Below are positions 20,482 through 23,011 of a DNA stretch of 64,000 nucleotides, piece by piece. A model generated the notes under the pieces. The model was not told where the DNA came from, ran no database searches, and saw only the letters and a program-made list of their open reading frames with translations. This DNA comes from Sphingobacteriales bacterium 44-61 (GTDB taxonomy: Bacteria > Bacteroidota > Bacteroidia > Chitinophagales > Chitinophagaceae): contig MKTW01000016.1 of NCBI GenBank assembly GCA_001898405.1, positions 1-64,000 on the forward strand. Direction: 5' to 3'. A program made the translations under genes and the position numbers. How positions within the stretch are numbered: position 1 is the first letter of the stretch; each line of letters starts with the position of its first letter.

Positions 20482-20489
20482 TATCTTTG
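20482..20489 (+). promoter_or_regulatory. -7 box TATCTTTG upstream of cydA
   Basis: A perfect TAnnTTTG with a TTTT -33-like element at 20459-20462, exactly 19 bp upstream. The predicted start is near 20496, so about 87 nt of leader precede cydA. Confidence 0.6.
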
Positions 20490-20497
20490 CACCGTGT

Positions 20498-20533
20498 ATG
20501 AATAATCACCCTGATCATATTATCAATTCATAA
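20498..20533 (+). CDS. Candidate leader micro-ORF of cydAB (11 aa)
   Basis: ATG at 20498 opens an 11-codon frame, MNNHPDHIINS, ending in TAA at 20531-20533. Its position about 2 nt after the predicted transcription start matches the leaderless starts of other genes in this window. The stop is followed at once by another ATG (TAAATG), whose 19-codon frame runs through the terminator hairpin and past the cydA ATG. Existence of the peptide is inferred from position only. Confidence 0.3.
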   Translation: MNNHPDHIINS

Positions 20534-20538
20534 ATGAA

Positions 20539-20563
20539 AGCGAACAAACGGTTCGCTTTTTTT
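20539..20563 (+). terminator. Intrinsic terminator/attenuator in the cydA leader
   Basis: AGCGAAC (20539-20545) and GTTCGCT (20551-20557) form a 7-bp stem with a 5-nt loop, running directly into seven T residues (20557-20563). It lies between the promoter and the cydA start codon, 20 nt before the ATG at 20583, so it should terminate transcripts unless overridden. Confidence 0.7.
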
Positions 20564-20582
20564 ATGCCTAAAACCGATGGTT

Positions 20583-21965
20583 ATGGATGTTGAAATTCTA
20601 TCCCGCATACAATTTGCCTTCACCATTGCTTTCCATTATATCTATCCTCCTTTAAGTATTGGCCTCGGGCTTACGCTGGTGATCATGGAAGGGATGTATC
20701 TGAAAACGCGTAATCCCATTTATGAAAAAATGACGCGGTTCTGGATCAAAATATTTGCGCTCATTTTTGGTATTGGCGTGGCTACAGGCATCATCATGGA
20801 ATTTGAATTTGGAACCAACTGGGCGGCTTATTCCAAATATGTAGGAGATATTTTTGGCAGTGCGCTGGCGGCAGAAGGAATTTTTGCTTTTGCATTGGAG
20901 AGCGGTTTTCTTGGTATCCTTTTATTTGGATGGAACAGGGTGGGGCCTAAAGTGCATTTCTTTGCTACCGTGATGGTATTCCTTGGCTCGATGTTCAGTG
21001 CCGTATGGATCGTGGTGGCCAATAGCTGGCAGCAAACACCGGCTGGATATCATATTGTGGGGGAAGGGATGAATGCGCGGGCGGAGATCACTGATTTCTG
21101 GGCCATGGTATTCAACCCTTCGAGTGTTGATCGCCTTACACATACATGGTTGGGCGCTTTTCTCGCCGGTTCATTCCTCGTATTAAGTGTGAATGCCTAT
21201 TATATCCTGAAAAAGAAACACCTGGAAATTGCAAAGCCTGCTTTTAAAATAGCATTGACTGTGGCACTCATCAGTTCTTTATGCCAGCTTATTTCAGGAC
21301 ATAGCAGTGCTGATGGAGTGGCAAAGAATCAACCGGCCAAACTGGCTGCTATGGAAGGACATTATGATAGCAGTGCCGCTGCAGATATGTACCTCTTTGG
21401 CTGGGTAAATGATAAGGAACAGAAAACAAGCGGACTGGCCATCCCTGGTGGGCTTTCCTTTCTTGTGCACCAGGACTTCAAAGCGCCGATCACAGGACTG
21501 AATGCTTTTAAACCGGAAGACCGGCCAGGCCAGGTGAATGCTGTTTTCCAGTTTTACCATATCATGATATCAATAGGAATGATCCTGATCGCCCTCACTG
21601 TATATGCATCATGGTTGTGGTGGAGAGGGAAACTGTTTGATAAAAGATGGCTGATGCTGGTGTTTGCCTGGGCCGTTCTTTTGCCACAGATCGGTAACCA
21701 GGTGGGCTGGTTCACTGCAGAAATGGGAAGACAGCCCTGGGTGGTATATGGGCTGCTGCGTACTTCAGATGGATTATCGAAAAATGTGCAGGCACAGCAA
21801 GTTCTTTTTTCTCTGATCCTGTTCACGCTGGTGTATACCATCCTGTTTATCCTGTTCCTTTATCTGCTGAACAAAAAAATTAAACACGGGCCGGTGGATT
21901 ATAACACCAAAGAGGTGATTGATGAAGGAAGTAAAAGAGATAACCCAATTCTTCAACACGGCTAA
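20583..21965 (+). CDS. cydA: Cytochrome bd oxidase subunit I
   Basis: Quinol-oxidising subunit of the high-affinity cytochrome bd oxidase in the inner membrane. Numbered from [10 protein letters not shown] at 20583 (460 aa), the heme ligands match E. coli with an offset of one: His18 in FHYIYPP (b595/d ligand), His187 in LTHTWLGAF and Met381 in [12 protein letters not shown] (b558). The conserved acids Glu98 and Glu106 ([14 protein letters not shown]) of the proton path are present. The Q-loop between about 245 and 310 is of the short type. ATG at 20577 would add two residues (MV) and is less likely. cydB follows 11 bp after the stop. The upstream terminator hairpin implies regulated read-through, as expected for an oxygen-responsive oxidase (inference). 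Confidence 0.96.
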
Positions 21966-21976
21966 AATATTATCAT

Positions 21977-23011
21977 ATGGGCAGTTTTCTCGGTTTGGAT
22001 TACAACGTATGGTGGTTCCTGGTTTTCGGAGCCGTTATATCAGGGTATGCCATCCTGGATGGCTTTGACCTTGGTGCAGGCGCTTTGCATCTTTTCTTAA
22101 AAAAAGAACAAAGCAGGCGCATAGCATTAAATGCTATTGGACCGATCTGGGATGGGAATGAAGTATGGCTGGTAATTGGAGGTGGTGCTTTATTTGCCGG
22201 GTTCCCGGTAGCGTATGCTGCTATCTTCTCAGCATTTTATATCCCCTTTTTTATTTTTCTTATCGGCTTAATATGGCGTGCAGTGGCCATTGAGTTCCGG
22301 AGCAAGGAACCTGGCCGCCTCTGGAGGCTTAGCTGGGATTTTGTGTATTCATTTGCCTGTATTGTGATCGCGCTCTCGTTGGGGTTGATGCTGGGAAATG
22401 TTGCGCTTGGCCTGCCCTTGAATGATCAGAAAGAATTTACCGGCAACTGGCTTAGTTTCTTCAATCCTTTTTCCATCCTGGTAGCGGTCACGACCTTAGC
22501 GCTGTTTATGATGCATGGAGCCATCTACCTTGCCATGAAAACGGAAAACCGTTTATATACCAAACTCACTATCCTTGCCAAAAACTTCACTGTTTTCTTT
22601 GTGATGAGCTTTGCGATCACTACAGTGTATACCCTTCTGTATATCCCGCACCTAAGCGACCGGATCAAATCCAATCCCCAGTTCTTTATCTTCCCTTTGA
22701 TCATGATGCTGGCAATCGCTAATATCCCCCGCATGTTGAATAAAGGAAAATACCGGCATGCATTCGCCAGTTCCTGTGTCACTATTGCCTCATTGCTCAT
22801 TATGGTAGCGATAGAAGTCTTCCCTAACCTGCTATACGCTACCAATGATGCAGCCAACAGCATCACTATTCATAACGCAGTTGCTTCAGAAAAAACAATG
22901 AAGATATTATTGCTGATCGCATTGATAGGAACACCGCTGGTAGCATTGTACACAAGCTTTGTGTTCTGGACGTTCAAGGGGAAAGTAAAGCTAGACGAAA
23001 TGAGCTATTAA
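21977..23011 (+). CDS. cydB: Cytochrome bd oxidase subunit II
   Basis: Structural partner of CydA. The N-terminus has the family signature WFLVFGAVISGYAILDGFDL with GAGALHLF, followed by about eight hydrophobic helices. GPIWDGNEVWLVIGGGALFAGFP (residues about 55-77) is the conserved second landmark, holding the Asp next to the heme-bearing face. At 344 aa it is close to the usual length. Its start is 11 bp after the cydA stop, so the two are one transcript. No cydX-like small ORF or cydCD transporter lies next to it. The long hairpin at 23014-23133 begins 3 bp past its stop and probably ends the transcript. Confidence 0.96.
   Translation: MGSFLGLDYNVWWFLVFGAVISGYAILDGFDLGAGALHLFLKKEQSRRIALNAIGPIWDGNEVWLVIGGGALFAGFPVAYAAIFSAFYIPFFIFLIGLIWRAVAIEFRSKEPGRLWRLSWDFVYSFACIVIALSLGLMLGNVALGLPLNDQKEFTGNWLSFFNPFSILVAVTTLALFMMHGAIYLAMKTENRLYTKLTILAKNFTVFFVMSFAITTVYTLLYIPHLSDRIKSNPQFFIFPLIMMLAIANIPRMLNKGKYRHAFASSCVTIASLLIMVAIEVFPNLLYATNDAANSITIHNAVASEKTMKILLLIALIGTPLVALYTSFVFWTFKGKVKLDEMSY

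Follow-up and report, generated by a model that had tools for sequence, protein, structure and literature searches.

A stop-adjacent short open reading frame and a terminator hairpin before cydAB in some Chitinophagaceae: a candidate ribosome-gated attenuator

In Sphingobacteriales bacterium 44-61, a member of the Chitinophagaceae whose genome comprises 5.58 Mb in 20 contigs, the two subunits of cytochrome bd oxidase are encoded by neighbouring genes, cydA and cydB, separated by just 11 nt on contig MKTW01000016.1. The stretch analysed here, hereafter “the window,” covers positions 1 to 64,000 of this contig. The nearest named relatives of the bacterium suggest a place near Terrimonas: cydA shares 92% identity with the gene of G084, the one other genome of the genus in the comparison, and 85% with that of Terrimonas ferruginea. 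Upstream lies a co-directional gene for a TPR protein, and the 119 nt that follow its stop codon lead to the stem of a predicted terminator. This terminator, a promoter box, and a very short open reading frame (micro-ORF) make up the leader of cydA (Table 1).

Table 1. Features of the cydAB locus in the window
Feature	Position	Strand	Basis and remarks
-7 box TATCTTTG	20482..20489	+	Sequence; Bacteroidota-type promoter
Micro-ORF MNNHPDHIINS, 11 codons	20498..20533	+	Sequence; stop TAA 20531-20533; translation predicted
Intrinsic terminator	20537..20563	+	Sequence; termination predicted
Terminator parts	stem 20537-20545/20551-20559; loop 20546-20550; T-run 20557-20563	+	Sequence
cydA, cytochrome bd oxidase subunit I	20583..21965	+	Pfam PF01654, E 3.5e-167
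cydB, cytochrome bd oxidase subunit II	21977..23011	+	Pfam PF02322, E 3.1e-90

The box TATCTTTG is a perfect match to TAnnTTTG, the -7 consensus described for Bacteroidota (PMC7366714), and its position suggests that transcription probably starts at about 20493-20497. A first-pass annotation of this DNA had announced a strong -33/-7 promoter; the -7 half stands, and inspection of the sequence further upstream reveals no TTTG-type -33 box. The 11-codon micro-ORF was found just as that annotation had drawn it. The terminator had been given a 7-bp stem and seven T: the T count is right, and the arms AAAGCGAAC and GTTCGCTTT form a perfect 9-bp stem around a 5-nt loop, with four G-C pairs in its 6-bp core. 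The hairpin is computed at -12.2 kcal/mol; the folding z-score is -3.54, with 1 of 200 shuffles folding equally well. From the end of the T-run to the cydA ATG there are 19 nt; another ATG, at 20577, is probably not the start, because the relatives begin with MDVEIL. A generic scan of the window reported 12 terminator-like sites where 6.2 were expected by chance, and neither the cydA promoter nor the hairpin was among its results; the promoter was missed because the scan seeks sigma-70 TTGACA/TATAAT elements. Finally, a second frame that opens at TAAATG, crosses the hairpin, and continues beyond the cydA ATG had been proposed as part of the control. It is real in the window and is not conserved, being absent from L102 and, by eye, from most other leaders of the type described below (L125 has an ATG near the TAAATG place, its close relative L124 does not), so it was rejected as a part of the mechanism (L and G numbers are our handles for loci and genomes).

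How widely is this arrangement shared? Among 394 genomes of the family, 70 have a cydA matching at E <= 1e-150, and 68 of them offer a readable upstream region; G122 and G596, whose cydA match is truncated, were excluded, as were cydA homologues of about 31-42% identity and L032, a named record outside that draw. A leader was counted when the box lay 30-75 nt before a terminator that itself ended no more than 60 nt from cydA. By this rule, box and terminator occur together in 12 of the 68 regions, spread over seven genera as judged by genus codes (the window, L102, L104, L105, L106, L124, L125, L126, L128, L131, L132, and L259), while 29 regions have the box only and 27 have neither. All 12 leaders carry a short ORF of 9-16 codons whose stop codon lies 2-6 nt before the stem. 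Its start is placed 4 nt after the box in seven of them and 8-17 nt after it in the other five, the extreme being L106, which uses TTG at 17 nt. The box is found 37-61 nt before the stem in every case if written TAnnTT[TC][GA], and in nine leaders in its strict form TAnnTTTG; the T-run ends 11-23 nt before the cydA ATG. By comparison, an ATG short ORF of any kind is present in just 3 of the 29 box-only regions.

The first-pass annotation had read the locus as an attenuator of the oxidase and had named the conservation of hairpin and micro-ORF before cydA as the check. Both do recur there, although the arrangement is absent from 56 of the 68 related genes, including that of the close relative T. 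ferruginea (L103). A 43-row cydA tree requires five changes of state to explain where the element occurs, four of them forced by well-supported branches, against a mean of 10.6 after shuffling; it was therefore lost or gained several times, and it persists in distant branches of the tree. In eight regions a terminator lies within 60 nt of cydA with no box 30-75 nt before it (L112, L116, L118, L244, L246, L250, L251, and L255), and several of these directly follow an upstream gene. Two further arrangements were noticed in passing. In Ferruginibacter L032, at about 2394-2503, a hairpin and a weak box precede cydA, and a short ORF crosses the hairpin to stop just before the gene. Niastella-type loci, L006, L015, L019, and L024 among them, have cydA just behind a conserved gene with its own terminator, whose product ends in MYGEPCSTVP[IV][FY]KKK or similar; this differs from the attenuator type.

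Could such a combination of common motifs arise by chance? In 464 kb of the host genome (the window plus twenty 20-kb stretches), 34 strict terminators were found, and only one, that of the cydA leader, has the box within 110 nt upstream. With looser rules, the same 464 kb yield 84 terminators, of which 32 are followed by an ORF start; two of these 32 have a box 30-75 nt upstream, and one has a stop-adjacent ORF. G141 and G009 also bear the element before cydA; in 200 kb from each, the loose scan found 36 and 41 terminators, respectively, none with the full arrangement, and no second full match appeared in the 864 kb sampled from three carrier genomes. Across 717 kb of cydA-bearing loci, in which some contigs are present twice, 205 terminators were counted. 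An ORF starts after 110 of them; among these, 35 have the box no more than 110 nt away, and 11 of the 35 also have a stop-adjacent short ORF. All 11 stand directly before cydA; they represent 10 genomes, since L004 and L106 are the same contig. The box with a stop-adjacent short ORF can nevertheless arise by chance, because four places away from cydA show it (two in L035, one each in L067 and L107), in each case with no ORF start after the hairpin.

As a further test of the ORF position, every spacer between box and stem was given 4000 dinucleotide shuffles. Under the rules of the scan, shuffled spacers yield a stop-adjacent ORF at a frequency of 0.06-0.24, which gives a joint probability of 9e-7 when one leader is taken from each of the seven genera, leaders of one genus not being independent. 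Stricter rules set afterwards (ATG only, 0-6 nt) give 6e-10 over six genera, L106 failing them. A Fisher test of the short ORFs (12/12 vs. 3/29) gives 5.8e-8, or 1.4e-5 with one leader per genus, the ORF rules differing between the two groups. An ATG exactly 4 nt after the box is seen in 7 of the 12 leaders vs. none of 34 control boxes near cydA, and in 1 of the 44 TA[CT]CTTTG boxes counted over the two strands of 800 kb.

A BLAST search with the leader in its own genome returned no second copy, the next match having an E of 0.35. A covariance model was built from nine leaders and searched in 294 genomes of the family: none of the nine training leaders scored worse than E 1e-8, the strongest match besides them had an E of 0.0014, and in the host genome the cydA leader was the sole match at E <= 1. 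Two left-out leaders were recovered at cydA (G060, E 0.08; G095, E 0.16), while a third, G559 (L259), by its handle number probably among the 294, was missed at E <= 1. Most weak matches are noise, since 145 of the 294 genomes have at least one at that threshold, and the 21 of the best matches away from cydA that were inspected (L231 at the wrong stretch) resemble ordinary gene-end terminators. Those of L218, L224, L227, L228, and L235 are followed by an ORF start within 50 nt. In L235, on the reverse strand from about 1501, a terminator-like hairpin with a T-run was seen by eye directly before a hisG-like gene, possibly an attenuator of another kind.

The peptides themselves are unrelated between genera: MNNHPDHIINS, MSNDFYHIIK, MILFSYDIILLN, LNQREQHIIPV, MLSNLLTTYK, MNFTTRYCS, MKFNFRYLIIHH, MTFYKNIFFIIM, and MKAHCIHNTRTSILFR, together with near variants. 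No residue is common to all 11 distinct peptides (Asn occurs in 10, Ile in 8, and Tyr in 8), and no sequence is conserved between genera except the box, the start codon, and the hairpin, the spacers being different. Measured from the assumed start, the 12 leaders are 60-84 nt long. Their hairpins range from -11.8 to -17.3 kcal/mol, and the ORF part that precedes the stem is weakly structured, at 0 to -5.4 kcal/mol. No competing anti-terminator helix is conserved across the 12 leaders. By eye, U-runs lie within the ORFs of L104, L105, and L132 and are not seen in the window, L102, or L124, which gives no sign of a U-rich pause tract shared by every leader. A riboswitch or other known RNA family was rejected given this weak folding of the ORF part and an Rfam search whose best match, at 24.3 bits, is far from the gathering score of 51.4. 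The short distance from box to ATG suggests that the micro-ORF starts nearly leaderless. Such starts are uncommon in the phylum: about 3.7% of the 5′ UTRs reported for B. thetaiotaomicron are shorter than 10 nt (PMC7366714), and 5.5% of the mapped mRNAs of F. psychrophilum are given as leaderless (PMC9723704).

The surroundings of the leaders are variable. Among 10 examined, the nearest upstream gene is divergent in L268, L270, and L273, whose terminators therefore cannot end an upstream transcript. It is co-directional in the other seven, where it encodes the TPR protein in the window and visibly unrelated proteins in most others, those of L271 and L106 being alike. A main cydA promoter downstream of the hairpin had been named by the first-pass annotation as a refutation; with 11-23 nt between T-run and ATG, there is no room for one. 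As for a shared DNA operator, none of the candidates separates the two groups: TGTAAC/GTTACA occurs in 0 of 12 element-bearing and 7 of 56 element-free regions, [AG]TCACA in 1 of 12 and 6 of 56, and TTGAT-ATCAA in no cydA region of either kind. A palindrome TGTAA[CT]NNNN[AG]TTAC was noticed before cydA in 21 of 80 named loci (e.g., L028, L037, L044, and L080), mainly of flavobacteria and mostly 44-52 nt before the ATG, with exceptions at 107 nt (L036) and 85 nt (L041). It resembles the operator of a Crp/Fnr-type regulator, and a half-site test did not find it in the 12 attenuator leaders. In L124, L125, and L126, several direct repeats of the type CAGTTA[TC]TCAGTTA lie upstream of the -7 box, where an operator array and a mobile repeat are both possible.

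How might such a leader work? We consider it reasonably probable that the cydAB leader is a transcription attenuator acting by direct ribosome occlusion, of the kind known from E. coli pyrBI. Transcription would begin a few nucleotides before the micro-ORF and yield a leader of about 60-84 nt ending in the intrinsic terminator. If no ribosome followed closely, the hairpin would fold, the short RNA would be released, and cydAB would stay off. If a ribosome loaded on the nearly leaderless start codon and reached the stop codon, its footprint would cover the 5′ arm of the terminator, the hairpin would be blocked, and the polymerase would read into cydAB. The outcome would thus hinge on how the first ribosome fares in a race with RNA polymerase. 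On this reading, inferred from the sequences, the hairpin would stop transcription, the ORF would be translated, and the ribosome would decide read-through.

Three features of the sequences agree with the pyrBI type. A promoter, a leader ORF, and a terminator precede the structural gene in the window and throughout the 12 of 68 regions; the stop codon is so near the stem in all 12 that a ribosome there would cover it; and an alternative anti-terminator hairpin is absent, the ascending arm being little or not paired by upstream sequence in 10 of 12 leaders and weakly paired in L104 and L125. In E. coli, when the distance between a stop codon and the terminator after it was shortened from 28 to 5 bp, termination efficiency fell from about 90% to less than 10%, and uncoupling translation restored it (PMC4824070). 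All 12 cydA leaders have their stop in that range, and therefore a ribosome occupying this codon would be expected to inactivate the terminator. The idea, present in the first-pass annotation, that ribosome movement controls the hairpin thus gains support from this fixed spacing. According to the same source, a terminator located in the initial 100 bp of a coding region can be an efficient one (PMC4824070); the ribosome may therefore often come too late at the cydA leader, and the outcome should depend on the speed of ribosome loading.

Other accounts of the same anatomy fare less well. An unlikely one is that a protein or another trans-acting factor binds the leader or the polymerase and governs the terminator, the micro-ORF being incidental. 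The variation of the micro-ORFs in sequence and length would suit it, as would the want of an apparent signal for a device made of the ribosome only; yet a binding site should be conserved, where only box, start codon, and hairpin are common between genera, and the stop-to-stem distance would be accidental in 12 of 12 leaders. Slightly less credit goes to a constitutive attenuator, in which a fixed share of polymerases reads through and the hairpin just sets a low level of cydAB, with nothing sensed. No sensing element is recognisable and 56 of 68 relatives do without the arrangement, as this account would have it, but a fixed weak terminator needs no ORF, and both the ORF and the position of its stop are kept in 12 of 12. 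The first-pass annotation had offered a small RNA as its alternative, and promoter and terminator would indeed yield an RNA of about 60-84 nt. That this product acts in trans and happens to be encoded before cydA is very improbable: nothing outside box and hairpin is conserved between genera, full matches in the 717-kb scan stand directly before cydA only, and the host genome has no second copy.

Amino-acid sensing by the cydA leader is also unlikely, and an attenuator of the trp/his/ilv kind has only a marginal chance. A short leader ORF before a terminator and the adjacent Ile codons of several peptides recall such systems, but there is no run of regulatory codons and no residue that every one of the 11 distinct peptides shares, terminator and anti-terminator helices that exclude each other are not conserved, and the terminators of such attenuators are described as lying more than 20 bp from the leader ORF (PMC4824070), as against 2-6 nt here. 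Equally marginal is the view that the terminator serves the gene upstream and that the -7 box arose by coincidence, for which the co-directional TPR gene and the eight box-less terminators, several just after an upstream gene, may be cited, against the 119 nt that separate stop codon and stem in the window, the divergent neighbours in L268, L270, and L273, and a box that each of the 12 leaders has 37-61 nt ahead of its stem, leaving no space for a further promoter in front of cydA.

Biosynthesis, metal, and resistance genes account for most of the known leader-ORF attenuators. At pyrBI the signal is UTP, and leaders of this type carry a nucleotide-sensitive polymerase pause tract. Like the proposed occlusion attenuator of cydAB, pyrBI (pyrL) has its leader ORF next to or overlapping an intrinsic terminator, and tight coupling of ribosome and polymerase keeps the hairpin there from forming (PMC4824070, PMC5021804). 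Neither needs an amino-acid code. Differences lie in the longer ORF of pyrL and in the polymerase pausing sites that set its coupling (PMC4824070), compared with an ORF of 9-16 codons that starts nearly at the 5′ end and a target that is cytochrome bd. In Bacillus subtilis bmrB-bmrCD, a ribosome on a small ORF likewise decides transcription past an intrinsic terminator (PMC4191407), with three alternative stem-loops and a response to protein-synthesis antibiotics, whereas the cydA leaders have one hairpin and no resistance gene. The Salmonella mgtCBR leader has a short ORF, mgtM, with an unconserved peptide, and there translation-transcription coupling reads an energy-related, ATP-responsive signal; unlike the cydA leaders, it is 296 nt long, uses alternative stems and no intrinsic terminator, and high ATP promotes expression (PMC3641672). 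Within the phylum, leader-peptide attenuation has been described for amino-acid operons: those of Flavobacterium also have a short ORF in the 5′ region and serve amino-acid biosynthesis (PMC9723704), while the cydA leaders precede a respiratory operon and lack regulatory codons. The top matches of a literature search, mostly without subscription journals, contained no attenuator for cytochrome bd, and “cyd” is not found in the main text of a survey on premature terminators (PMC2965389); the trans-acting small RNA reported to bind cydA mRNA in Rickettsia is a different matter (PMC5105140). Relative to the ribosome-mediated attenuation already known, what we rate as new in the predicted device is its target, cytochrome bd, its minimal anatomy, and its nearly leaderless ORF.

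What would be gained by timing a respiratory operon in this way? One speculative answer, rather doubtful as it stands, is that in some Chitinophagaceae the micro-ORF is a race timer, a gauge of energy or translation: when nucleotides are low or respiration is poor, a slowed polymerase would let the ribosome cover the terminator and the high-affinity oxidase would come on with no sensor protein, and such a device may replace operator control of the kind suggested by the flavobacterial cydA palindrome. Energy or nucleotide supply as the signal is the boldest guess of all. The 12 natural leaders indicate which distances and codons to vary. That the arrangement of tiny ORF and terminator is kept across genera though its peptide is not suggests that the ribosome helps decide whether cydAB is transcribed.
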